From Chloroflexi bacterium HGW-Chloroflexi-2 (GTDB taxonomy: Bacteria > Chloroflexota > Anaerolineae > Anaerolineales > Anaerolineaceae): DNA of 64,000 nucleotides. Shown here in pieces: positions 15,224 to 51,653 of the stretch. The first letter of the stretch is position 1; the number at the start of each line of letters is the position of its first letter. The notes beneath the pieces were generated by a model. It searched no databases. It was not told the DNA's origin and saw only the letters and a list, made by a program, of their open reading frames with translations. The DNA lies in contig PHBY01000008.1 in assembly GCA_002840735.1 (NCBI GenBank), forward strand, positions 186,001-250,000, written 5' to 3'. Made by a program: the position numbers and the translations under genes.

Positions 15224-15409
15224 TTCGCAATACTTCCTGAATAAGCCAGTTCACTCTTCTCGGTGTACACACCCCAAAAAATTGAATGCCAAATAATTTG
15301 GTTATCAGCCGACAGATGCCTGTAATTCTGTCAGATCCCACCACATTACCGACAAAATTGACGGGGTTGCAATATTTTGGCAAGTACTATTTCCTTGTAC
15401 AATAAGTTC

Positions 15410-17854
15410 ATGGCTGAATCCTTTGATATTGAACGAAAAATTTCTGAAATCGAAGCAGAGTTAGCGAATCTGGATCATCACCGTAACCAGTTACTGGATG
15501 AGCTGACACAATTACGCCGGCTGCACATTCAAAAAGATTCCCCAGCACAACTAATGCTGAACATTCAGGGAATTACAGTCAATAACCAATCCTCTCAAGA
15601 GGAAAAAATCCGGTTATTCCGTTCTTTATTCAAAGGGCGGGAGGACGTGTTTCCACGCAGGTTCGAAAATTCCAAAACCGGAAAGTCAGGCTACGCCCCC
15701 GTCTGTCGTAATGAATGGCAAGCAGGAATTTGTCATAAGCCGAAAATCGCCTGCCAGGAATGCAATTTTCGCGCGTTTACTCAAGTGAACGATGAGATCA
15801 TCCGGAATCATCTCATGGGAATTGACCCCAATGACCGTTTTGGCAGAGACTTTACAATAGGGGTTTATCCTTTGTTGGCAGACGAATCATGCTGGTTTCT
15901 GGCAGCTGATTTTGATAAATCCACCTGGACAGAAGACGCCAAAACCTTTCTGGAGACGTGTGTCAGTTATCAAGTTCTTGCCGTCTTGGAACGATCACGT
16001 TCCGGAAATGGTGGGCATGTATGGATATTTTTTGAAACACCAGTTCCTGCAGTATTAGCGCGAAAACTCGGATCATTACTGCTAACCAGTGCGATGAACC
16101 GGCGACCGGAAATCGGAATGGATTCTTATGACCGGCTTTTCCCCAGTCAGGATACCTTGCCCAGAGGCGGATTTGGTAATCTGATTGCACTACCGCTGCA
16201 GAAAAAACCACGTGAACAAAATAACAGCATCTTTTTGGACAATGATCTCAATCCCTATTCCGATCAATGGGCTTTTTTATCATCGATTCAGAAGATGGCT
16301 CATCAAGACCTCGAAAGAATTGTGAAGAGTGTTCAAGGCGAAGGTGAATTTACCGGCGTCCGCGCGGTAGTTTTGGATGAAACCGAGAACGAACCCTGGA
16401 AACTGACCCCATCACGGAAATATAAGGAACCACCAATAATTGGTCCTTTGCCAGATCAACTCAACCTGGTCATCAGCAACCAGATTTACATTGAAAAAGA
16501 AGGGCTGCCCGCGCCCTTGCGAAATCGCCTCATCCGGTTGGCCGCCTTTCAAAACCCCGAATTTTACAAAGCCCAGGCCATGCGCCTATCAACGTTCGGG
16601 AAACCCAGGATTATCAGCTGTTGTGAGGAATATCCGAAACACCTTGCCTTACCCAGAGGGTGTCAGGAAGAGCTGTTCCAGGTATTGGGTGAGCTAAAAA
16701 TCAAAACAAAGATGATTGACGAACGTGCGACTGGTGATCCTCTATTATTAAACTTCCAGGGAACGCTTCGTCCTGAGCAGCAGCTTGCCGCAGATCAACT
16801 GATTAAGCATGATATCGGTGTTCTTTCTGCTTCTACTGCTTTCGGCAAAACGGTCATAGGTGCATGGTTAATTGCTCAAAGGAAAGTGAACACCCTGGTA
16901 ATTGTTCATCGAAGACAGCTGATGGACCAATGGGTAGAAAGCCTCCAATCGTTTTTAGGACTGGGAAAAAAGGAAATCGGACAGATCGGGGGTGGAAAAC
17001 ATAAAATCACCGGAACGGTAGATGTAGCGATGATCCAGAGCCTGATCAACAAGGGCACAATCAATGATCTGGTTGGGAATTATGGACATATCATTGTTGA
17101 TGAATGCCACCATATATCCGCAGCCAGTTTTGAGCAGGTGATTCGCCAAGCAAAAGCCAGGTTCATTACCGGTTTATCCGCAACCGTCACCCGGCAGGAC
17201 GGTCACCACCCGATCATTTTTATGCAATGTGGGCCTGTCCGATATCGGGTAGATGATCGCCAACAAGCCGCCGCACGCTCATTTACCCACAAGGTAATTG
17301 TTCGTAGAACCAATTTTGTTTTGCCAAGTCGAGCGGACAATGCTCCAGAACCAGGCATTCAGGAAGTGTACGCTATGCTCGCAGCGGATTTCTATCGAAA
17401 TCAAATGATTGTTGACGATGTTGTTGAAGCCGTTCACATTGACCGTTCGCCTGTATTGTTGACAGAACGCCGAGAACACCTCGCATATTTTGCTGATACC
17501 CTGGCAGACAAAGTAAAAAATATTATTGTTTTATCTGGTGGAATGGGGCGCAAACAGCGGATTTTATTGATGAACCAACTGAACAATATTCCAGAGGATG
17601 AAGAACGTTTGATCATTGCTACCGGACGGTATCTGGGGGAAGGGTTTGATGATGCTCGCCTTGACACTTTATTTTTGGCATTGCCGATTGCCTGGCGCGG
17701 AACGGTAGCACAATATGCAGGTCGACTTCACCGCAATTATGACTGTAAAAGTGAGGTGATCATCTATGATTATGTCGATGACCAGGTGCCAGTATTGGCT
17801 GGTATGTTTGGAAAGAGGAAAAAGGGGTATAAGGCCATCGGCTATGAAGTGTAA
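15410..17854 (+). CDS. TOTE-type primase-polymerase/superfamily 2 helicase fusion
   Basis: About 814 residues. Order: N-terminal coiled coil (ERKISEIEAELANLDHHRNQ); archaeo-eukaryotic-primase domain with a Cys/His cluster (CRNEWQAGICHKP..CQECNF), the metal pair in 'FLAADFDKS' and 'GNGGHVWIFFE'; then an SF2 helicase with Walker A 'SASTAFGKTVIG', DECH box 'IIVDECHHIS', 'GLSATVTR' and motif VI 'QYAGRLHRNY'. This matches the primase-helicase of TOTE conflict systems, proposed to act against invading nucleic acid; function is inferred. All motifs look intact among broken neighbours. Start at ATG 15410 is preferred over TTG 15377; a TACAAT box ends 6 bp before it and no ribosome site is seen, so it may be leaderless. 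Confidence 0.8.
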   Translation: MAESFDIERKISEIEAELANLDHHRNQLLDELTQLRRLHIQKDSPAQLMLNIQGITVNNQSSQEEKIRLFRSLFKGREDVFPRRFENSKTGKSGYAPVCRNEWQAGICHKPKIACQECNFRAFTQVNDEIIRNHLMGIDPNDRFGRDFTIGVYPLLADESCWFLAADFDKSTWTEDAKTFLETCVSYQVLAVLERSRSGNGGHVWIFFETPVPAVLARKLGSLLLTSAMNRRPEIGMDSYDRLFPSQDTLPRGGFGNLIALPLQKKPREQNNSIFLDNDLNPYSDQWAFLSSIQKMAHQDLERIVKSVQGEGEFTGVRAVVLDETENEPWKLTPSRKYKEPPIIGPLPDQLNLVISNQIYIEKEGLPAPLRNRLIRLAAFQNPEFYKAQAMRLSTFGKPRIISCCEEYPKHLALPRGCQEELFQVLGELKIKTKMIDERATGDPLLLNFQGTLRPEQQLAADQLIKHDIGVLSASTAFGKTVIGAWLIAQRKVNTLVIVHRRQLMDQWVESLQSFLGLGKKEIGQIGGGKHKITGTVDVAMIQSLINKGTINDLVGNYGHIIVDECHHISAASFEQVIRQAKARFITGLSATVTRQDGHHPIIFMQCGPVRYRVDDRQQAAARSFTHKVIVRRTNFVLPSRADNAPEPGIQEVYAMLAADFYRNQMIVDDVVEAVHIDRSPVLLTERREHLAYFADTLADKVKNIIVLSGGMGRKQRILLMNQLNNIPEDEERLIIATGRYLGEGFDDARLDTLFLALPIAWRGTVAQYAGRLHRNYDCKSEVIIYDYVDDQVPVLAGMFGKRKKGYKAIGYEV

Positions 17855-35389: not shown

Positions 35390-36451
35390 ATGAAACATAT
35401 TATCGAAGATTTTAATCCTTTATCAGGCAAGAATGACATAACCACCGCCATCCGCGAAGTGATTAAGTATTATGGTGTCAATCTCAGTGAAGAAATGCTG
35501 TTTGGTCTGGGCGCTGGTTTGCATTTCTACTATTTCAATATGCGTAGTCTGCCACATCCAGTCATTGGTGGCAGAATGCTTCCCAGAAAATTTGAGGAAA
35601 ATCTCACCCAGCATAGCCATATCAATATCCAAATAAAAACCACGGAAGATGAGAAATCAGCCTGGAATTTACTAAAGAGTAAACTCATTCTTAATCATCC
35701 CGTTATCGTTTATGTGGAAATGTCTGAACTGGATTATTTACACATGCCACCGGATCAACGCTTTGGGAGTCATTGTGTCACGGTATTTGGTTTTGATGAA
35801 GAAAAAAATGTAGCCTATGTATCCGATCGTGATCAGGTGGGGTTTCCCATCACGGTGTCTCCACAGGAACAACCCCAGAGTTTCCATTTGATACCCATAC
35901 CAGAACTCTCCAGAGCACGAATTTCCAAATTGGAACCTTTCCCCCCGGACAACATCTGGCTGGAGATTGAGTGGAATTATTACCATTTTCTTACCCGCTT
36001 TCAGATTTTTTCTGCCATCAAGGAAAATATGATTCAATTTCTCAATGCACCTCACACAAACGAAGGTTTGAGAGCTATTCTCTTATTTGCTCGTTCCATG
36101 GATAAATGGAAAAATTGGAGTGCAGCAAAACTAAATCGGGCAGCGTTGAACGCCTTTATCATGATTGATCAAATTGGAGGTACAGGCGGTGGCGCTTTCC
36201 GAAAAATGTATGGACATTTTTTATTGGAAGCATCTCACCAGGCAGCCGCCCCCGCTTTAGGTGCGGTTGGAGAGCAATACTTATTCCTGGGTGAGCAGTG
36301 GGATGAAGTTGGACACCTGTTTTTCAACCTTTACCAGGGTGAACAGCCAGATATTCTCGAGGATATAAAAAATAAATTGCTTCAAATCGCAGTTGTTGAA
36401 AAAGGCCTTGCCAACCAATTGCTTTCTGTCATTAATGCCATAAGCGAATAA
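35390..36451 (+). CDS. BtrH-like (BtrH_N/DUF4872) protein without the usual Cys
   Basis: A 353-residue protein. The first ~150 residues match the butirosin BtrH N-terminal, papain-like fold: 'TTAIREVIKYYGVNLSEEML', 'FGLGAGLHFYYF', 'GSHCVTVFGFDEEKN' with the His/Asp pair. The opening motif, usually HCxTTAL, reads NDITTAI, so the expected Cys is Asp. The C-terminal half (DUF4872-like) has 'GAFRKMYGHFLLEAS'. BtrH moves an acyl group from a carrier protein to an antibiotic; relatives in other bacteria have unknown roles. TATAAT at 35,351 may be its -10 box. Confidence 0.7.
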   Translation: MKHIIEDFNPLSGKNDITTAIREVIKYYGVNLSEEMLFGLGAGLHFYYFNMRSLPHPVIGGRMLPRKFEENLTQHSHINIQIKTTEDEKSAWNLLKSKLILNHPVIVYVEMSELDYLHMPPDQRFGSHCVTVFGFDEEKNVAYVSDRDQVGFPITVSPQEQPQSFHLIPIPELSRARISKLEPFPPDNIWLEIEWNYYHFLTRFQIFSAIKENMIQFLNAPHTNEGLRAILLFARSMDKWKNWSAAKLNRAALNAFIMIDQIGGTGGGAFRKMYGHFLLEASHQAAAPALGAVGEQYLFLGEQWDEVGHLFFNLYQGEQPDILEDIKNKLLQIAVVEKGLANQLLSVINAISE

Positions 36452-38067: not shown

Positions 38068-39567
38068 ATGTATATAGCCGCAATTGACCAGGGTACCACC
38101 AGTACGCGTTTCATTATTTTTGACCTGACCGGTAAAATCATTGCATCCGAGCAAAAAGAACACCAACAGATTTACCCACAACCCGGGTGGGTGGAGCATA
38201 ACCCATTGGAAATCTGGCAAAATACACAGGAAGTGATTTCCAGTACACTACAAAAGAGTGGTATTCGTCCCAATGAAATTGCTGCGGTGGGAATTACCAA
38301 TCAGCGTGAAACAGCTATCCTCTGGGAGAAGGCTACAGGCAAACCGGTTCATCCTGCAATTGTCTGGCAGGATACCAGAACGGATAAAATTTGTTCGCAA
38401 TTAGCGCTGAATGGGGGGCAGGATCGCTTCCGTTCCAAAACAGGACTGCCTCTGGCAACCTATTTCTCCGGTCCGAAAGTGAAGTGGGTCCTGGATAATT
38501 TTCCTGAGATACAGGAAAGAGCAGAGCAGGGTGAAATTCTGTTCGGAAATGTTGACACCTGGTTAATCTGGAATCTCACCGGTGGACCGGATCATGGTTT
38601 GCATATCACGGATGTGACCAATGCCTCGCGTACGCTATGTATGAATCTCGAAACCCTGGATTGGGATCCGGAAATTCTGCAAATGATGGGAATTCCACGG
38701 GTGATGCTTCCACAAATCCGTTCATCCAGCGAAGTTTATGGTCGCATTAATTTGGGTCAATTGTCAGGAGTTCCCATTGCTGGAATTCTGGGGGATCAAC
38801 AGGCAGCCCTTTTTGGCCAGACCTGTTTTGACGTGGGTGAGGCCAAAAACACCTATGGCACCGGGTGTTTTATGTTATTGAACACCGGCACCAAGATTGT
38901 ACAATCGGATAATGGCTTGCTAACAACCGTCGGATATAAAATTGGAGATGCTCCTGCCATCTACTCGCTTGAGGGATCCATTGCCATCACCGGCGCGTTG
39001 GTGCAATGGTTGCGCGATAATCTCAACATCATTCAGAATTCGAATGAGGTGGAACCACTGGCAAAAACGGTGGATGATAGTGGTGGCATCTATTTTGTTC
39101 CGGCATTCTCAGGCTTATATGCCCCTTATTGGCGTAGTGATGCCCGTGGTGTGATTGTCGGGCTGACACGTTATATCAATAAAGGTCACCTGGCACGCGC
39201 AGTTCTGGAAGCCACGGCTTACCAGACGCGTGAGGTGCTGGATGCAATGAACAAAGATTCAGGTGTAGATCTGAAAGCGCTCAAAGTGGATGGTGGCATG
39301 GTTTTCAATAACACTTTGATGCAATTCCAGGCGGATATTCTGGGGGTGCCTGTCATCCGCCCAACGGTAGCAGAAACGACAGCCCTTGGAGCAGCCTACG
39401 CTGCCGGATTGGCAGTAGGTGTTTGGTCACAGATTGATGATCTGCGCGCCAACTGGGGGATGGATGCAATCTGGCGACCTCAGATGAATGTGGATCGACG
39501 CGAAAAAATTTATGCAGGTTGGAAGAAAGCAGTAACCCGCACATTTGATTGGGTTGAAAAATTTTAG
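38068..39567 (+). CDS. glpK: Glycerol kinase
   Basis: A 499-residue FGGY kinase phosphorylating glycerol to sn-glycerol-3-phosphate. Marks: '[14 protein letters not shown]' (phosphate loop), '[10 protein letters not shown]', '[13 protein letters not shown]', '[14 protein letters not shown]', '[14 protein letters not shown]', '[19 protein letters not shown]'. Full length, all motifs present. GGAGG before the ATG. First gene of the operon; its product is the substrate of the next enzyme, 42 bp downstream. Confidence 0.96.
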
Positions 39568-39609
39568 TTATGTTATGATTGTGAAATTAGTTACAATGGA
39601 GTAAAACGC

Positions 39610-40794
39610 ATGGATAAACCGCAAGCAATTGTGATCGGCGCTGGCTTCACCGGGGTGGCGGTTGCTTATGATCTGGCACAACGTGGGATGAAGGTCACAG
39701 TTCTGGAACGGGGACCACTGGTCAATGGCACTTCGGGACGAACGCATGGCCTTCTGCACAGTGGTGCCCGTTATGCAGTCGATGATCAGGAATCTGCGAT
39801 CGAGTGCATCGACGAGAATCTGATTCTGCGTAAGATCATTCCGCAGGTAATTGAACCCAATGGCGGTCTTTTTGTAGCGCTGAACGAGTCCGATATGGCG
39901 TATCGTGAAGCATTTATAAAGGGCTGTGCAGATTGTCATATATCAATAGAAGAATTAACCCCCAGGCAGGCTCTGTCCCTTGAGCCAAACCTAAATCCCA
40001 AACTGATCACAGCCTTTAAAGTTCCGGATGGCACCTTTGACCCCTTACGCCTGGCGATGGGATTCGCTGCTTCCGCCAATGCATTGGGAGCTGAAATTCA
40101 CTTATTTTGCGAGGTGCAGGATTTCATCCTGGACGGAATGGGGAATGTAAAGGGTGTAAAGTATCTTGATCGTTCTTCAAATCAAATTAAAAAGATCAAT
40201 GCCGACATCGTAATCAATGCTGCCGGAGTCTGGGCCGGGGAAGTGGCTGGACACGCAGGCAACATTGATCTTCCTATTAAGCCTACCCCGGGTGTGATGG
40301 TGGCGTACGATCAACGTTTGTGCCAGCGTGTCATCAATCGACTGAATGAACCTGGCGATGGTGATATTATCGTTCCACAACGCAAAATGATCACGGTCGG
40401 CACTACCTCCTTTGAAGCGGATAATCTGGATTACATTCCGGTCTTCGATGATCAGGTACAGCTCATGTTTGAGCGTGGTTGTGAGCTCATCCCAGCCATC
40501 AAGCACACCAAAGAACGCGGGGCTTTTATGGCATCCCGGCCTCTCCTGGATTCAGGCACAAAGGGACGCAGTCTGACCCGAACGTTCAAGTGCTTCGATC
40601 ATAAAGAATCAGATAACGTCGATGGGCTGGTAACCATCACCGGAGGGAAAGCCACCACCATGCGTCTCATGGCGGAAAAGACAGTTGATCTGGTTTGCCA
40701 GAAATTAGGCATGCGTGTACCCTGTCAGACGGCTGAAATCCCAATCCATTCATATCGTAAGTTTCATCTCGCACACAATCAGGAGGTTGCATGA
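39610..40794 (+). CDS. glpA: Glycerol-3-phosphate dehydrogenase flavoprotein (GlpA type, without Fe-S tail)
   Basis: A 394-residue DAO-fold flavoenzyme. FAD motif 'VIGAGFTGVAVAYDLAQRG', 'GTSGRTHGLLHSGARYA', 'NAAGVWAGEVAG', 'GDIIVPQRKMITVGTTS' and 'VTITGGKATTMRLMAEKTVD' are those of anaerobic G3P dehydrogenases (GlpA), which oxidise glycerol-3-phosphate to DHAP. E. coli GlpA is ~540 residues with a C-terminal BFD [2Fe-2S]-like part; this one stops before it. Its last codons overlap the start of an SdhB-like gene by 4 bp, so the two proteins are probably made in equal amounts and joined in one complex. Confidence 0.9.
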   Translation: MDKPQAIVIGAGFTGVAVAYDLAQRGMKVTVLERGPLVNGTSGRTHGLLHSGARYAVDDQESAIECIDENLILRKIIPQVIEPNGGLFVALNESDMAYREAFIKGCADCHISIEELTPRQALSLEPNLNPKLITAFKVPDGTFDPLRLAMGFAASANALGAEIHLFCEVQDFILDGMGNVKGVKYLDRSSNQIKKINADIVINAAGVWAGEVAGHAGNIDLPIKPTPGVMVAYDQRLCQRVINRLNEPGDGDIIVPQRKMITVGTTSFEADNLDYIPVFDDQVQLMFERGCELIPAIKHTKERGAFMASRPLLDSGTKGRSLTRTFKCFDHKESDNVDGLVTITGGKATTMRLMAEKTVDLVCQKLGMRVPCQTAEIPIHSYRKFHLAHNQEVA

Positions 40795-41504
40795 CACAAA
40801 CCTGGCATGTTACTTACGAAATCTTCCGCAAAAAAGGCGATCAGTCTACCCATTATGATCGCTTTGAAATGAAAGTTGATCCGGATGAATATGTGCTGGA
40901 TGGCATTGAACGCATCTGGGCTTTCCATGATCGCTCCTTGGTTTTCTCGCATGCCTGTCACCACTCTACTTGTGGTGCTTGCGGTATGGTGGTCAATGGT
41001 GTCGAAAAACTTACCTGCATCACGCCCATTCGCTCGGTGACAAAGGATGGCGGTGTCATTCGTGTGCAACCCATGCGGAATTTTCCTGTCATCAGTGACT
41101 TATCGGTGGATATGACCGTCTTTTATCAACGCATGGAAAGTGTCGGGCATCAACCGGTTGTCTCCGTTGGCTTTGAAGATAGTAAAGGGAAGCTTGATTC
41201 CGAAGATGATTTGTTGCGGTTATCTGATTGTATCGAATGCGGACTGTGTATCAGCGCTTGTCCGATCGCCCTGACCACACCAGCCTATCTGGGGCCTGCG
41301 GTTCTGGCTGGAGCGCAACAATCCGGGGATCTCAACCCCTGTGTGCTGGAACTGGTGGATTCTGAGAATGGTGCCTGGCGCTGTCATAGCGCTTATGAAT
41401 GCACAGAAGTATGCCCATCGCATGTCGATCCGGCCTGGCGAATTATGGACTTGCGCAAGAAATTAGTAGCCAGGCGTATAAAAAAATTCTTTGGTGTAAA
41501 GTAG
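40791..41504 (+). CDS. SdhB/FrdB-type iron-sulfur subunit, in glycerol-3-phosphate dehydrogenase operon
   Basis: A 237-residue electron-transfer subunit. Plant-type [2Fe-2S] site CHHSTCGACG with a later Cys (KLTC), [4Fe-4S] site CIECGLCISACP and the [3Fe-4S] set with 'CHSAYECTEVCP'. All ligands for three clusters are present. In succinate dehydrogenase it carries electrons from the SdhA flavin to quinone. Here no SdhA gene adjoins; the overlapping partner is the GlpA-type flavoprotein, so electrons likely come from glycerol-3-phosphate. It could still serve an SdhA encoded elsewhere. Confidence 0.88.
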   Translation: MTQTWHVTYEIFRKKGDQSTHYDRFEMKVDPDEYVLDGIERIWAFHDRSLVFSHACHHSTCGACGMVVNGVEKLTCITPIRSVTKDGGVIRVQPMRNFPVISDLSVDMTVFYQRMESVGHQPVVSVGFEDSKGKLDSEDDLLRLSDCIECGLCISACPIALTTPAYLGPAVLAGAQQSGDLNPCVLELVDSENGAWRCHSAYECTEVCPSHVDPAWRIMDLRKKLVARRIKKFFGVK

Positions 41505-41512
41505 GAGCGAAA

Positions 41513-41899
41513 ATGGCAGAACATCCACAAAAACCTGCTAATCTTATAAAATGGTTCGATCCTCGGAATAAGAGTTTGGGTTCCTGGGCTTTTATTCTCA
41601 ATCGTATTACCGGTCTTGGTCTCACACTTTATCTTTTCCTTCATTTAATAATGCTGGGACAATTAGCCAGAGGTCCCGAAGCCTACGACGGTTTTATTGC
41701 TCTGGTAAAAAACCCCATCTTTCTAGTTGGTGAATTATTGGTAATCGCTGCAGCCTTCATCCACGGATTAAATGGAATACGAATCGGGATTACCAGCTTT
41801 GGAATAGCAGGTGGCAAACAAAAGCAGCTCTTTATCGGGCTGATGACTGTGGCCGTCATCGCGATTGTCTATTTTGCCATTCGCATGTTCACCCATTAA
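41513..41899 (+). CDS. SdhC-like cytochrome b membrane anchor
   Basis: 128 residues from ATG 41513 (GGAG upstream); a longer frame from 41,399 lies inside the previous gene. Pattern of SdhC: 'SLGSWAFILNRITGLGL' with the Ser and Arg of the quinone site, three TM segments, His in 'LYLFLHLIM' and in 'FIHGLNGIRIGI' as heme ligands. Binds heme b and reduces menaquinone in the membrane. Lies 8 bp after the iron-sulfur gene. Confidence 0.88.
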   Translation: MAEHPQKPANLIKWFDPRNKSLGSWAFILNRITGLGLTLYLFLHLIMLGQLARGPEAYDGFIALVKNPIFLVGELLVIAAAFIHGLNGIRIGITSFGIAGGKQKQLFIGLMTVAVIAIVYFAIRMFTH

Positions 41900-41914
41900 T
41901 AAGGAAGGAGAGAT

Positions 41915-42289
41915 ATGAGAGACGGATTTGATGTGACTCCTCGGTCGGGTGAAGGCGCTGGACTCTGGTTTCTGAAGATACTAACCGGTTTCCTGGTCAT
42001 TATTGTTTTAATTATTCACCTGATCGTCAATCACTTAATTGTTGAAGGTGGTCTGTTGACCTATGCCGATGTTGTCCGCTATTATCAAAATCCCATCATT
42101 CCCATCATGGAAATTGCATTCCTGATCTTTGTGGTCACCCATGCGTTGATGGGATTACGCAGCGTACTGCTCGACCTGCATCCATCCAACAAAGTACTGA
42201 AGCTTATCAACTATGGCCTGGTCGTTCTGGGTGTTGGTTCCATTGCTTATGGCACCTGGCTGATATTGGTGATTGTGGGCAGGGGGTAG
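41915..42289 (+). CDS. SdhD-like membrane anchor
   Basis: A 124-residue protein with three TM segments (FLKILTGFLVIIVLIIHLIV; IPIMEIAFLIFVVTHALMGL; 'LVVLGVGSIAYGTWLILV') and His residues in 'IHLIVNHLI' and 'THALMGLRS', the SdhD pattern. AAGGAAGGAG before the ATG. Last gene of the operon glpK-glpA-sdhB-sdhC-sdhD-like. Confidence 0.85.
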   Translation: MRDGFDVTPRSGEGAGLWFLKILTGFLVIIVLIIHLIVNHLIVEGGLLTYADVVRYYQNPIIPIMEIAFLIFVVTHALMGLRSVLLDLHPSNKVLKLINYGLVVLGVGSIAYGTWLILVIVGRG

Positions 42290-42343: not shown

Positions 42344-42416
42344 GGCTCACTAGCTCAACTGGCAGAGCAATTGACTCTTAATCAATCGGTTCAGGGTTCG
42401 AGTCCCTGGTGAGTCA
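42344..42416 (+). tRNA. tRNA-Lys (anticodon CUU)
   Basis: Cloverleaf fits: acceptor GGCTCAC with GTGAGTC, D arm GCTC/GAGC, anticodon stem ATTGA/TCAAT with loop CTCTTAA (anticodon CTT), T arm CAGGG/CCCTG with TTCGAGT loop, discriminator A. CCA is only partly encoded (CC). No integrase or att duplication is seen beside it. Confidence 0.95.
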
Positions 42417-44985: not shown

Positions 44986-47900
44986 ATGCAAAATTCCTGG
45001 TTGAATTTTTCCAGGTCTGTTTTGATTATGGACAAAATCAAAATGAGATTTCTGATGGGTTTGATTCTTGTTGGGCATGTATTTACGCTGGCCTTCTCAT
45101 TGGGAAAACCCGCCCACTTAACGGATGCGCCACAGATCGAATATCAAAGTGCAAATAACACCATTTCCTTAACCTTACATGTTCCAGCCATTCAATGGCA
45201 ACAAACAGATGCGGGGACATCCATTTCGATTCCAAATGCAGAAATTCTTACCCATCCTGGCGATCCGGACATTCCATATTTTTCCACGGCTATAGCGTTG
45301 CCTGCAGGTACTTCCCTGCAAACCTTTATCAATATTTCGCCTGAACTGCGTGTTCCTGCACCGGGCGATCTGAATTATTCATCCACCTACGAATCCGAAA
45401 TGATTCACAATTCATTCGAACAAAGTAACAATTTGTGTTCTCAGGAAGTATTCCAAAACCCAATTCAAATGGGTAACCCATTCTGGTACCGCGATCAGTA
45501 TCTTGTTTCAATTAATTTCTATCCAATCCGTTGGGATTGTGTATCAAATAAATTTATAGTCATCAAAGACCTCGAACTCAAAATTACGTTTGATGAGCCG
45601 CTGGAATTTGTTGAAAATTTGAATATGGATTTACTGGATGATATCAATCCCCTGGAATTGAATATCATCAATCCACATGATGGCTTTTTATGGAAAGCAG
45701 ATCCTCCCGTTCTCTGGGGGAGTGACCTTCGAGATCCATGGGAAACACGTGTCCGTATAGAAGTTGAAGAGCCGGGCATCTACCGGATCACCTATGAAGA
45801 CCTTCAAGCAGTTGGGTTTGATCTGGAAGGATTAAACCCTATATATTTTCACATCGAAAATCAGGGTCGTGAAGTCGCCTATCAGTTTGAAGGAGACGAG
45901 GATGCCATCTTCGATGCAGGTGAGTCCTTCCTCTTTTATGGCGAGCAATTTCAAGGGGATTATTTATCGGCCTTATATGCACATCAAGCTGATCACTGGC
46001 CAGCCTTTGGTTCCTGGCAACCTGAATTTTCAGCCTTCATGCTCGAAAAATACACCAACACCAATGTCTACTGGTTGTTCATCTCCAACACACCTGGTCT
46101 GAGAATCACTGAAATCGATGGTACTCCTCAATCGGGGAATCCCGTTACTACCTTTGTGGATCAAGCACACTTTGAGGAGGAAAAAGTATGGTGGACTTAT
46201 CATTTCACCAACGAAGATACCTGGTTTTGGGAAAATGTTAATGTGCTATCATTCCCGTCCATTTATAAATATTATGTTCAGTTTATAAATCCGGTAATCT
46301 CTGAGGAACTATCAGCTCACGTAGAAGGACAAATTGTCTCCGCCACATCCAGTTCAGCCATCAATCCAGATCATCATCTTCAATTCTTCCTGAACGACCA
46401 ACTAATTACCGATGAGGATTGGGATGGCGCTGTTCGTCATTCGTTTTCAGGTTCGATCAATCAACAGTACATAATTTCAGGTGAGAATAAATTTTCTTAC
46501 ACAGTCCACTCGGTGGGATTACCAGCTTCTCGCTATGGGTTTGACTGGTTCTCAGTTAACTATACCCGCGTCTTGAAGGCAGTGAATGACCAACTGTTAT
46601 TCAACATTAATTCAGTTGAACCAGTTGATGTTCAGGTGGCTAATCTTTCTTCCCCTGCAAATTATTTATGGAATATATCAAACCCTTTACAACCAATTGC
46701 CATTCGTAGCCCAGAATTTGATACCGGATTGCTTACATTTAACCAGGATTATTTAGGGCAGCAGCAATACATCGTTTCAAACTTGAGTGCCATCAAATCG
46801 GTTACAGAGAATCTCTTCCTATACACACCGCCGGATCTCCTGTCTTCAAACCAACAGGCGGATTACCTCATCATTTCTCCCAAACCATTTCTGGAGGATT
46901 TACAACCCCTGGTAGATTATCGATCTTCCCAGGGGTACAATGTTCGTCTGGTTGATCTGCAGGATGTATACAACCAGTTCAACTTCGGCATTGCTCACCC
47001 CATTGCAATCAAAAACTTTTTTGGGTACATCTATCAACATTGGGAAAAACCAGCACCCGCTTATGTGTTACTGGTGGGAGATGGGCATTGGGATTTGAAA
47101 AATGTAAAGTCCTCTGAGAAGACTTTTATGCCACCCAATTTTGTCTGGGTCGATCCATTGCAGGGTGAAGTGGACAGTCTCAGTGATCTGGTTGCGGTTG
47201 CCGGAGATGATATTTTCCCGGATGCTATGATTGGCCGTCTGCCTGTCAACACCACCCAGGAATTGCAAGGGTTTATTCATAAGACCATTCAATTTGAAAC
47301 AGGGAATTCTGAGTGGAAAAGAAACCTGACCTTCGTGGCGGATAATTATTACCTCCAGAACCCGGACAACTGTACAGACAATGACCCCATTACGGTCTGT
47401 TCCACTGATCCGGCTGGTAACTTTCCTGCTATTGTCAATCAGGTCATTGCAGATGAAATACAAGCTCCATACCAGATCAATAAAATCTTCCTGGATGATT
47501 ATGATTGTCGCTCATCCTCACCCGATAATTGTACTCAAGTAAGAACCGATATCGCGCAGGCATTTAACCAGGGGAACCAGATCATTTCCTTCAATGGACA
47601 CGGCGCTATTCCCTATTGGGCGGCTGAAAAGGTCTTGCATGTTGATCATATTCCGGATCTTACCAATAAAGATCTTTATCCAGTAGTGTTCTCTCTGGAT
47701 TGTGTGGATGGATACTGGTATTATCCACCCAATATACCTGACCAACCTATCGATCGACGCTCGCTCGCCGAGGAATTAACCCGTGTTCCAGAAAAAGGCG
47801 CAGTTGCCATGCTTTCATCGCCTGGAAACGGCTATGTCAATGGCCATGAATTACTCCAGCGTGGATTTTTCTCCGCCTTCTCCAACCTGCCACTTCCCAC

Positions 47901-48051
47901 TCTGGGAGCCCTGGATCTGAATGCAAAATTAACATTGATGGCAAACCACGGCAATGATAGCCTGATTTTTACCTACATGATTTTTGGTGACCCTGCTTTG
48001 CAATTATCCCCAATTCGATGGAAATTTTACCTTCCTTTGGTGACACGCTGA
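44986..48051 (+). CDS. Secreted C25 (gingipain-type) cysteine protease
   Basis: A 1,021-residue secreted protein: signal peptide around residues 20-42 (MRFLMGLILVGHVFTLAFS), gingipain propeptide-like region, a beta-rich part, and a C25 peptidase domain (about 620-1,010): 'VDYRSSQGYNVRLVDLQDVY', 'VLLVGDGHWDL', catalytic His in 'ISFNGHGAIPYW', Cys in 'FSLDCVDGYW'. It ends with FYLPLVTR, a C-terminal tag shared with two other secreted proteins in this window. ATG 44986 or the inner ATG 45028 could start it. C25 proteases process surface proteins or digest peptides; its neighbours suggest a role in maturing the cluster's products. Confidence 0.88.
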   Translation: MQNSWLNFSRSVLIMDKIKMRFLMGLILVGHVFTLAFSLGKPAHLTDAPQIEYQSANNTISLTLHVPAIQWQQTDAGTSISIPNAEILTHPGDPDIPYFSTAIALPAGTSLQTFINISPELRVPAPGDLNYSSTYESEMIHNSFEQSNNLCSQEVFQNPIQMGNPFWYRDQYLVSINFYPIRWDCVSNKFIVIKDLELKITFDEPLEFVENLNMDLLDDINPLELNIINPHDGFLWKADPPVLWGSDLRDPWETRVRIEVEEPGIYRITYEDLQAVGFDLEGLNPIYFHIENQGREVAYQFEGDEDAIFDAGESFLFYGEQFQGDYLSALYAHQADHWPAFGSWQPEFSAFMLEKYTNTNVYWLFISNTPGLRITEIDGTPQSGNPVTTFVDQAHFEEEKVWWTYHFTNEDTWFWENVNVLSFPSIYKYYVQFINPVISEELSAHVEGQIVSATSSSAINPDHHLQFFLNDQLITDEDWDGAVRHSFSGSINQQYIISGENKFSYTVHSVGLPASRYGFDWFSVNYTRVLKAVNDQLLFNINSVEPVDVQVANLSSPANYLWNISNPLQPIAIRSPEFDTGLLTFNQDYLGQQQYIVSNLSAIKSVTENLFLYTPPDLLSSNQQADYLIISPKPFLEDLQPLVDYRSSQGYNVRLVDLQDVYNQFNFGIAHPIAIKNFFGYIYQHWEKPAPAYVLLVGDGHWDLKNVKSSEKTFMPPNFVWVDPLQGEVDSLSDLVAVAGDDIFPDAMIGRLPVNTTQELQGFIHKTIQFETGNSEWKRNLTFVADNYYLQNPDNCTDNDPITVCSTDPAGNFPAIVNQVIADEIQAPYQINKIFLDDYDCRSSSPDNCTQVRTDIAQAFNQGNQIISFNGHGAIPYWAAEKVLHVDHIPDLTNKDLYPVVFSLDCVDGYWYYPPNIPDQPIDRRSLAEELTRVPEKGAVAMLSSPGNGYVNGHELLQRGFFSAFSNLPLPTLGALDLNAKLTLMANHGNDSLIFTYMIFGDPALQLSPIRWKFYLPLVTR

Positions 48052-48760: not shown

Positions 48761-49569
48761 GTATTAATCAAAAAACACTGCTGATCATTGTCGTAGTATG
48801 CCTGCTGAGTCGGGTATTTTTGGGGTCGATTTCTTTCGTTCAAGCTGCCGTAACGCTGGTTTCATTTGATGCTTACCCTGGTAATCAACAGGTAATTTTG
48901 GAATGGGAGACAGCCACCGAAGCAGATATGCTCGGTTTTTATATCACCCGCAATAACCAACCCAATGGAAATTACACCCGGATCAGCCCTTTTATCTTTA
49001 CACAGGGCACAACAGTCAGTGGCCTGGTATACCAGTATATTGATGGTAACGTGATCAATGGCCAAACCTACTACTACAAATTGGAAGCTGTTGATAATAC
49101 TTACAACAGTGAATTTTTTGGGCCGGTTTCAGTTATTCCGCTGCAAACCACATCCACCCACACCCAAACAATCACCCAAACCAGTTCCACCCAATCATTG
49201 ACTCGCACTTCTACGCCAACCATCACATTAACCCCTACCATTGATCTCACCCACAGCAAAACACCAACGCGAACATCGACATCCCCATTTTCGTTCGTGA
49301 CCAATACCGCTACCATGACATCTACGGCAACTCCGCGAATCTCTCCAACATATACCGGTACGGATACACCAGATTTGACATTAACCCCTGTAATTACCCG
49401 TACCCTGAAAATCATCAGTTACAATGTTTTCACGCCAACTGTTACGCCTGTACCTGAAGAAGTCAGCCCTTTCAGACAGGGTCTGGTTGGGTTTGTGATC
49501 ACGATTGGGATTGGCTTCCTTCTCATCATGACTGTTATCATCATCCAAAGGAATCGCACATCGTTTTGA
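48757..49569 (+). CDS. Fibronectin-III-like surface protein with Thr-rich stalk and C-terminal membrane anchor
   Basis: 270 residues: signal peptide (about 1-30, ending FVQA-AV), one Fn3-like domain (VTLVSFDAYPGNQQVILEWE; 'TYYYKLEAVDN'), a ~90-residue Thr/Ser/Pro stalk, and C-terminal TM (VGFVITIGIGFLLIMTVIII) with short basic tail. Type I surface topology. Translationally coupled (4-bp overlaps) to PqqD upstream and the C25 lipoprotein downstream. Confidence 0.8.
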   Translation: MSINQKTLLIIVVVCLLSRVFLGSISFVQAAVTLVSFDAYPGNQQVILEWETATEADMLGFYITRNNQPNGNYTRISPFIFTQGTTVSGLVYQYIDGNVINGQTYYYKLEAVDNTYNSEFFGPVSVIPLQTTSTHTQTITQTSSTQSLTRTSTPTITLTPTIDLTHSKTPTRTSTSPFSFVTNTATMTSTATPRISPTYTGTDTPDLTLTPVITRTLKIISYNVFTPTVTPVPEEVSPFRQGLVGFVITIGIGFLLIMTVIIIQRNRTSF

Positions 49570-51653
49570 GAGTCAGAACCATCCATATCATCTTATTATT
49601 GAGCCTATTGGTTGGCTTAACGGGCTGCCAGATTCAAAATCCTTCAAACCTTCCAGGTCAGGAAATTTCACAATTGCGCATCATTGTGTCGGATGAGGGT
49701 TACTATCAGATCACCCGCAAAGAATGGGAGGAAAATGGGCTTTCTCTTCATGACCCTGACCAGATACAATTACAGTTTCAAGGCAAACCACATCCGTACT
49801 GGCTAAACGCCGCACCCGATTCAAACGATTTCGCCATTCGATTCTATTCACCTCCGGTTTCACCAGCTAACAATCTAAGTGAGAACGTTTTTCTTTTGTC
49901 CAGAGGATTTTCAGAATCGAATAGCCGCATTATACCCAAAAAAGCACCTCCCACCCAAAGCAATTTCCAAAACAACTCGACTGGAACATATCGTGAAAAG
50001 TACGAAGGACAAGCCCTTTATCTCCCTCACGCAGTGGGTGAAGATCATTGGCTCTGGGCTTTATTCCAACCGGATCAACCCATTTCGCAGGAAATTAATT
50101 TGCCACAAGAAACAGTGGATAGCGCTACGATCCGGTTTCAAGTCTGGGTTTCTCCCACCAATATGGAGAATCCCGTACAACTTTTTTCAGCGTCTATCAA
50201 TGACCATGTTTTAACTCCCATACGGGTTGAAGGGCAGGGATGGCAGGAGATTGAATTTCAACTGGATCCAGCGTATGTGACCCAAAGGAATAACTTTTCC
50301 ATTCAGCCGATAACATCTCCAGATGACCTACCAGCAAAAATCTACTTGGATTGGATCAAAATGGAATATTCTCTTCCGGTTTATCTGGATGACCAGGTTC
50401 AATCATTTGCAATTCGTGAAAACCATTTTTTTACTTCAACAGGTTCTTCCAATGGCTCATTGGTGGTGGTAGATGAAAATCAGCAGGTTCTCGATATTTA
50501 TTCAATCCAATCTGATCACCTGTTCACGTTGGCAAATTTACCAGATACAACTTATGCCTGGATCCCTGATAACCAGTTTTTACCAGTTTCATCCCTTCAA
50601 CCAATTCAAAAAGAAGAGCTTTTGCTCCCATCCCAACCAATTGATTACCTCGTGATTGCCCCCAAAAAATTTCAGTTGGCGCTTTCACCCTTGATTAACT
50701 TAAGGCAAGAGCAGGATTTGGCAACGCTGATTGTGACTCCCCAACAGATTTATGATTCTTTTAATTCAGGCACGCCGTCTGTTGATTCCATACAGAAATT
50801 TATTCAAAGCATCGATCAAATTGAGCCAGGTCAGTTGGACTACCTGTTACTGGTCGGTGACTTCACTTATGAAATTATTGATTATCAGGAATTCATAAAA
50901 TTAGTACCGTCATTTTTTATTTCTTCAGGTCTGTCAGGGGAGACCATCAGCGATTACCCCTATACCGATCTAAACGCTGATTTAATCCCGGACCTTTCAG
51001 TGGGACGATTTCCTGCTAACACATCCGAACAGGTAACCGCCTGGGTTGAGAAGGTAATTTTGTATGAGCGCTCCATCCCTTCTGACTGGAACCAGATGAT
51101 CACTATTTCCGATCCATCGGATACAAATTTTACTGTATTTGCAGATAGTTTTTTAATCCCATTTATGGGTGAATATCAGACTCAATTGTACAATGCACCT
51201 GGTCTACATGAAATTCAAGAAATATTCCAAAGTTCATATGCACTGGTTACTTATTTCGGTCATGGCAGCATAGACCTTTGGGGAAAAGAGAAAATCTTAT
51301 CAATTCCCATGCTATCCGAATTACCAAAATCACCCGCCCCACCTCTTATCATCAGTTTCAGTTGTTTGAATGGTTACTTTATCCACCCACTGAAAATCTC
51401 TCTGGCTGAAGGATTATTATTCCACCCTGGTGGGGGAGCGATAGGAATTTTTGCCCCGACTGGACAAACATTAATGGAGGATCATGAAAAATTATTGCAA
51501 TTCTTACAGAATAAGTTACAATCAAATGATCATTCCAGAATTGGAAATCTAATCTATCATCAAAAAGGGGAGAATTCTCCTGATAATTACTTTGTCGCTA
51601 ATATTTTTCAAACATTTATATACTTTGGCGACCCTGCCATGCTCATTCCATAA
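49566..51653 (+). CDS. C25 (gingipain-type) protease, lipoprotein
   Basis: About 695 residues with TTG start at 49566 (TTGA overlap with the upstream stop). Lipobox LTGC with Cys at about residue 18. C25 domain in the C-terminal half: 'IDYLVIAPKKFQLALSPLI', 'DYLLLVGDFTYE', His in 'VTYFGHGSIDLW', Cys in 'ISFSCLNGYFI', 'IYFGDPAMLIP' end. It lacks the LPL tag and instead is lipid-anchored. A second protease of the same family as 44,986, in the same operon. Confidence 0.85.
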   Translation: MRVRTIHIILLLSLLVGLTGCQIQNPSNLPGQEISQLRIIVSDEGYYQITRKEWEENGLSLHDPDQIQLQFQGKPHPYWLNAAPDSNDFAIRFYSPPVSPANNLSENVFLLSRGFSESNSRIIPKKAPPTQSNFQNNSTGTYREKYEGQALYLPHAVGEDHWLWALFQPDQPISQEINLPQETVDSATIRFQVWVSPTNMENPVQLFSASINDHVLTPIRVEGQGWQEIEFQLDPAYVTQRNNFSIQPITSPDDLPAKIYLDWIKMEYSLPVYLDDQVQSFAIRENHFFTSTGSSNGSLVVVDENQQVLDIYSIQSDHLFTLANLPDTTYAWIPDNQFLPVSSLQPIQKEELLLPSQPIDYLVIAPKKFQLALSPLINLRQEQDLATLIVTPQQIYDSFNSGTPSVDSIQKFIQSIDQIEPGQLDYLLLVGDFTYEIIDYQEFIKLVPSFFISSGLSGETISDYPYTDLNADLIPDLSVGRFPANTSEQVTAWVEKVILYERSIPSDWNQMITISDPSDTNFTVFADSFLIPFMGEYQTQLYNAPGLHEIQEIFQSSYALVTYFGHGSIDLWGKEKILSIPMLSELPKSPAPPLIISFSCLNGYFIHPLKISLAEGLLFHPGGGAIGIFAPTGQTLMEDHEKLLQFLQNKLQSNDHSRIGNLIYHQKGENSPDNYFVANIFQTFIYFGDPAMLIP

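Follow-up and report, generated by a model that had tools for sequence, protein, structure and literature searches.

A predicted GlpA-SdhBCD glycerol-3-phosphate dehydrogenase encoded by a glpK-glpA-sdhB-sdhC-sdhD cluster in Chloroflexota

What enzyme is encoded where the gene for a glycerol-3-phosphate (G3P) dehydrogenase flavoprotein is followed by genes of the succinate dehydrogenase (SDH) type? The question is raised by a 64,000-nucleotide stretch of Chloroflexi bacterium HGW-Chloroflexi-2 (contig PHBY01000008.1, positions 186,001 to 250,000), called the window here. At 38068-42289 it carries, on one strand, glpK, a short glpA, sdhB, sdhC and sdhD, and no sdhA. The glpA and sdhB genes overlap by 4 bp. 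An initial annotation, made from the letters alone, had described this order with a tail-less GlpA, and the open reading frames (ORFs) and profile matches agree with it. Sequence comparisons lead us to conclude that the cluster probably encodes a membrane-bound, quinone-linked glycerol-3-phosphate dehydrogenase, GlpA-SdhBCD, a reading to which we assign a probability of about 0.82.

The window GlpA was compared with the TIGR03377 profile. The match spans profile positions 2-381 of 530, and the C-terminal iron-sulfur (Fe-S) domain is gone. The score of 433 bits is below the equivalog cut-off of 552.8, which fits the loss of the C-terminal tail. E. coli GlpABC shares with the window the flavin adenine dinucleotide (FAD) domain of GlpA and quinone-linked G3P oxidation, predicted in the case of the window. 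However, its GlpA works with GlpB and GlpC, neither of which adjoins the window cluster. A GlpABC system is recognized by a GlpA with an Fe-S tail and by adjacent glpB and glpC; here the tail is absent and the neighbors are sdhB, sdhC and sdhD. The window SdhB scores 153 bits against dhsB (TIGR00384), which has a cut-off of 88, and the Fer2_3 and Fer4_8 domains are also over their Pfam cut-offs. Both anchors exceed the Pfam cut-off for Sdh_cyt. With the NCBIfam models SdhC passes and SdhD fails (28.5).

Complex II, that is SDH and fumarate reductase (FRD), resembles the window cluster in its three-cluster SdhB and its heme-type SdhC and SdhD anchors. It differs in having SdhA and not GlpA as flavoprotein, in a common loop CRxxxCG (23/32), and in an SdhB that falls in a separate clade. 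An SDH or FRD has SdhA or FrdA encoded with sdhB/C/D, an arrangement absent from the window cluster. The genome (4.1 Mb, 99.87% complete) contains a single match to PF02910 (sdhA), on contig C19 beside its own sdhB, sdhC and sdhD. The initial annotation had proposed looking for a separate complete SDH, and this is that SDH. It had also named an sdhA elsewhere in the genome with no second sdhB/C/D set, or relatives in which this sdhB-D set adjoins sdhA, as findings that would count against a hybrid enzyme. Neither was seen: the C19 sdhA has its own partners, and in relatives the set adjoins glpA.

Relatives of the locus were gathered with the window SdhB, which gave 94 genome-contig matches, and the best 80 of the 94 loci were kept. 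As this protein was the query, the counts cover its relatives and not all SdhB. In 69/80 loci glpA immediately precedes sdhB in the same orientation, and sdhC and sdhD are also present in 60 of these 69. Among the nine linked loci without full sdhC/D, a contig end truncates five (L060, L061, L063, L080, L092) and four are uncut (L064, L082, L094, L096). The glpK gene is upstream on the same strand in 54/69 linked loci, and part of the remainder is cut. The eleven unlinked loci comprise four cut upstream, three with sdhA and four with neither gene in view. By taxon, the linked loci belong to Chloroflexota (57), Actinomycetota (9) and Spirochaetota (2), with one unassigned. Named, sequenced carriers are Anaerolinea thermolimosa IMO-1, Levilinea saccharolytica KIBI-1, Leptolinea tardivitalis YMTK-2, Bellilinea caldifistulae GOMI-1 and Thermanaerothrix daxensis GNS-1. 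The initial annotation had suggested searching related genomes for the order glpA-sdhB-sdhC-sdhD. With tens of loci showing this order, the adjacency of glpA and sdhB is not due to chance.

Three archaeal SdhB matches (L093, L095, L098) carry sdhA and are ordinary SDH, and no GlpA match at E<=1e-20 was found in their genomes (G101-G103). A fourth match, L097, lies close to the upstream end of its contig and falls with these three in the SdhB tree. One locus (L082) was considered as a possible GlpA-SdhB fusion. The candidate was rejected as the product of one N and a frame change, with GlpA ending in the other frame at its own stop; the locus was set by hand as linked in later counts.

Partner choice was also examined from the side of GlpA. 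A sample of 201 Chloroflexota genomes yielded 45 GlpA matches at E<=1e-60 in 44 genomes, and the neighbors were read for 30/45 matches (the window plus L193-L221). Short GlpA adjoins sdhB in 8/9 loci. The ninth (L200) is from genome G037, where an SdhB of the GlpA-linked kind is encoded at a separate locus (L183). Long GlpA adjoins glpB in 20/21 loci, with no glpB match seen in L213. None of the 30 examined loci adjoins both sdhB and glpB. Short GlpA, present in 9/201 genomes, is a steady minority. The two types also differ in length, 383-402 amino acids (aa) in 46 sdhB-linked rows versus 518-559 aa in 14 glpB-linked rows, and the latter, unlike the window GlpA, contain 4-6 Cys after residue 400. 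Among 300 sampled genomes of an archaeal phylum, 35 have GlpA at E<=1e-40, and eleven stretches were read. Six contain glpA-sdhB-sdhC-sdhD. These six resemble the window in their short GlpA, in the upstream glpK, and in a GlpA and SdhB that fall in the window's clades, but their anchors are only 27-43% identical to those of the window over the aligned parts. Of the other five, one is cut, two encode GlpB after a long GlpA, and in two a 428-aa GlpA precedes a small protein that resembles CoxG on inspection by eye.

The GlpA tree was built from hand-picked rows. The 46 sdhB-linked rows group with two unlinked short GlpA in a single clade (100/99) that holds archaeal, Chloroflexota, Actinomycetota and Spirochaetota rows, with the archaeal rows branching first. 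The sister of this clade is archaeal GlpA of 428-441 aa. For the SdhB tree, proteins were cut at 330 aa; the set excluded SdhB fragments <190 aa and 13 loci that duplicate longer stretches, and the identical pair L030/L180 was retained. A branch (99/97) separates 84 SdhB rows of the GlpA-linked kind from 32 SDH/FRD rows. On the SdhB tree with the labels first given, the glp label requires 7 changes and the sdh label 3. The two Spirochaetaceae rows form a long branch in the SdhB tree and group with Actinomycetota in the GlpA tree. The window GlpA and SdhB thereby share ancestry with the archaeal set (clade 100/99, split 99/97), and both trees are consistent with one assembled module common to Bacteria and Archaea.

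Residue counts were made after omitting SdhC rows <100 aa, SdhD rows <90 aa and SdhB rows <200 aa. The 11 cluster cysteines of SdhB are conserved in 76 rows; the only departures are a few X or gap cells, in three of the columns. Cys occupies all four [2Fe-2S] ligand positions of GlpA-linked SdhB, as in E. coli FrdB, and one of these positions is Asp in E. coli SdhB and in the genome's own SDH. The [2Fe-2S] loop of the window SdhB, HACHHSTCGACG, is unlike that of SDH/FRD. The pattern [HYQ][AS]CxHxxCGxCG occurs in 82/83 rows of the GlpA-linked kind and in 0/32 SDH/FRD rows, and CRxxxCG occurs in 0/83 versus 23/32. In complex II this loop lies toward the flavin, and a distinct loop is a mark that a changed flavin partner could leave.

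In the anchors, H44 and H84 of SdhC are invariant (69/69 rows), as are H35, H40 and H76 of SdhD (68/68 rows). E. coli SDH has one heme. Because only the equivalents of H84 and H76 are present there, the anchor of the window cluster is predicted to be diheme. These conserved Cys and His ligands point to a three-cluster SdhB and heme-type anchors, the clusters and hemes themselves being presumed from them. In GlpA, the positions of GlpD R54, Y55, R317, R332 and K354, which we take to line the G3P site, are invariant in 48/48 short GlpA. The GlpA structure model has a predicted local distance difference test (pLDDT) score of 83, and its nearest folds are GlpD and GlpO. The models are single-chain; they confirm the folds of GlpA and SdhB and say nothing on contact between them.

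The proposed pathway would run as follows. GlpK would convert glycerol to G3P, and the FAD of GlpA would oxidize G3P to dihydroxyacetone phosphate (DHAP). From there electrons would move past the re-tooled loop onto the [2Fe-2S] cluster in the SdhB-like subunit and on to its [4Fe-4S] and [3Fe-4S] clusters. A quinone, most likely menaquinone, would be reduced at the SdhC/SdhD anchor, which probably holds two b hemes. SdhB, SdhC and SdhD would thus stand in for the Fe-S tail of canonical GlpA, GlpB and GlpC. We infer the substrate, the complex, its direction, the quinone and the hemes. The central idea of the initial annotation, that a complex II type electron module has been re-used for G3P oxidation, draws support from gene order, phylogeny and residue conservation. 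Its further statement that menaquinone is reduced does not stand as written. Homologues of menA and COX1 in the genome make a menaquinone chain plausible, and menA and the anchor type suggest menaquinone as the acceptor.

Several observations weigh against this interpretation. The shorter motif CxHxxCG is found in 83/83 rows of the GlpA-linked kind but also in 7/32 SDH/FRD rows and is not special alone. Likewise, both histidines at the heme positions also occur in the SdhC of the genome's own SDH and are thus not special to the hybrid. The SdhB structure model, whose best fold match is E. coli FrdB, has a moderate pLDDT of 69. Gathering SdhB relatives by similarity to the window protein favors linked loci. 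In four loci (L073, L074, L086, L183) an SdhB of the GlpA-linked kind lies by itself among other genes, with no sdhC/D; the genomes of the last three, which were checked, have short-type glpA, or pieces of it, elsewhere. The Spirochaetaceae loci L094 and L096 consist of a glpA-sdhB pair without recognizable sdhC or sdhD. Because of these two groups of loci, the four-subunit complex is not universal. Unlike the GlpA tree, the free SdhB tree places the six archaeal rows among bacterial ones with weak support (87/70). When the bacterial rows, minus Spirochaetaceae, were constrained together apart from the archaea, the topology was not rejected (approximately unbiased test, p-AU 0.62) and its likelihood was slightly higher. 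Six SdhB rows had their labels corrected with the first tree in view: L085 from sdh to glp (its SdhA match is a 28% stretch inside GlpA), L082 from orphan to glp, L097 from orphan to sdh, and L045, L050 and L091 from orphan to cut. Finally, the genome encodes a second, GlpD-like G3P dehydrogenase of 533 aa (G000:C2:117157-118248; L100:705-2306) that scores 259.5 bits against its top NCBIfam model, PRK12266, below the cut-off of 360. With this protein present, G3P oxidation need not rely on the cluster.

The competing reading that survives best holds that the complex runs mainly in reverse, with menaquinol reducing DHAP to G3P for the lipid backbone where GpsA is absent. GpsA (PF07479) was not found in the window genome at its 99.87% completeness, and the control search was positive in 10/14. 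In the 201-genome sample, GpsA is present in 0/9 short-GlpA genomes versus 118/192 others, and in 10/44 genomes with any GlpA at E<=1e-60 versus 108/157 without, counts that are not phylogenetically independent and include one short-GlpA genome only 84% complete. PF07479 was not found in 25/25 sampled members of the window genome's class, and it is present in 118/176 other Chloroflexota. However, GlpA at E<=1e-60 occurs in only 6/25 of the class members, one of long type. Since no sampled class member has GpsA, GlpA-bearing or not, its absence is a clade trait that is not explained by this complex. For this reason a GpsA-replacing role is kept only as a rival, and we consider it unlikely. Under standard conditions, electron transfer from menaquinol to DHAP is energetically uphill. 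The glpK neighbor favors catabolism, GlpK itself yields G3P from glycerol, and the GlpD-like protein is also available. PMC6431249 reports GpsA in Thermofilum. A wider proposal would make GlpA-SdhBCD a trans-domain complex II look-alike, assembled once with its flavin subunit swapped, and also reversed to form lipid G3P from DHAP by menaquinol in Chloroflexota lacking GpsA. As a whole, this seems somewhat less likely again.

It is quite improbable that the flavoprotein acts on another DAO-family substrate and not on G3P. The score of the window GlpA below the GlpA equivalog cut-off would allow it, but the shortfall fits the missing tail, the tested G3P-site positions are invariant, glpK is the usual neighbor, and the nearest folds are GlpD and GlpO. 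Least probable of all is that SdhBCD serves the ordinary SdhA as a second electron-transfer and anchor set, its position next to glpA being a coincidence: SdhB and SdhC do score as SDH subunits in curated families, but the sole sdhA detected has its own sdhB/C/D, and the glpA linkage in 69/80 loci, the separate SdhB clade and the different [2Fe-2S] loop argue against it.

With GlpA-SdhBCD as the preferred reading, the cluster can be placed among known systems. The initial annotation knew of no described enzyme of this make-up. That does not hold: the legend of Fig. 9 in PMC11962113 (2025) draws GlpA-SdhBCD for the archaeon Thermofilum pendens, reconstructed from gene order and synteny, so the kind is already known as a prediction in Archaea. 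The Thermofilum pendens set, as drawn there, resembles the window in having glpA followed by sdhB, sdhC and sdhD. According to the same paper, canonical bacterial glpA consistently co-occurs with glpB and glpC, and Sulfolobus has a GlpA-CoxG that resembles the window in its non-canonical GlpA C-terminus and replaced anchor. Unlike the window proteins, CoxG there is a membrane anchor without SdhB-type clusters. A further link to this type is that archaeal GlpA rows of 428-441 aa are sister to the short-GlpA clade. GlpD has the same FAD fold as the window GlpA and shares quinone-linked G3P oxidation, predicted for the latter; GlpD is not known to have Fe-S or heme partner subunits, nor CoxG to carry a cofactor. 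No bacterial GlpA-SdhBCD was named in text searches of the open-licence literature, a scope outside which preprints and most subscription papers fall. The sequences compared here add the bacterial members and their spread, show that glpA never adjoins both sdhB and glpB in the loci read, and contribute the shared clades and residue signatures.

The features of the cluster are listed in the table. The mechanically called sdhC ORF starts at 41399, within sdhB; the ATG at 41513, preceded by AGGAG, is the likelier start. A tRNA-Lys gene follows sdhD at 42344.

Table. Genes of the predicted GlpA-SdhBCD cluster, in window positions.
Gene	Product	Length	Position	Strand	Profile evidence
glpK	glycerol kinase	499 aa	38068..39567	+	NF000756 778 bits, TIGR01311 756 bits, both > cut-off
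glpA	short GlpA-type FAD flavoprotein, predicted G3P-oxidizing subunit	394 aa	39610..40794	+	TIGR03377 433 bits
sdhB	SdhB-like three-cluster iron-sulfur subunit, predicted FAD-to-anchor wire	237 aa	40791..41504	+	TIGR00384 153 bits
sdhC	SdhC-like membrane anchor	128 aa	41513..41899	+	Sdh_cyt 57 bits; TIGR02970 58.6 bits (cut-off 52.3)
sdhD	SdhD-like membrane anchor	124 aa	41915..42289	+	Pfam Sdh_cyt 37.8 bits (cut-off 25.8)

Other proteins were noted elsewhere in the window. An 825-aa protein (15377-17854) has a TOTE conflict-system primase (AEP) domain and helicase domains, and a protein with BtrH_N and DUF4872 domains lies at 35390-36451. Two Peptidase_C25 (gingipain-family) proteins are near each other on the same strand (44986-48051 and 49566-51653).

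The data indicate that bacteria, too, have combined the complex II iron-sulfur and anchor module with an unrelated flavin dehydrogenase. Bacterial GlpA-SdhBCD loci run against the printed claim that glpA occurs with glpB and glpC in bacteria. The named, sequenced strains are places to look for an enzyme that is so far only predicted. The finding bears on the handling of glycerol by these bacteria and on the source of lipid G3P in a class with no detected GpsA.

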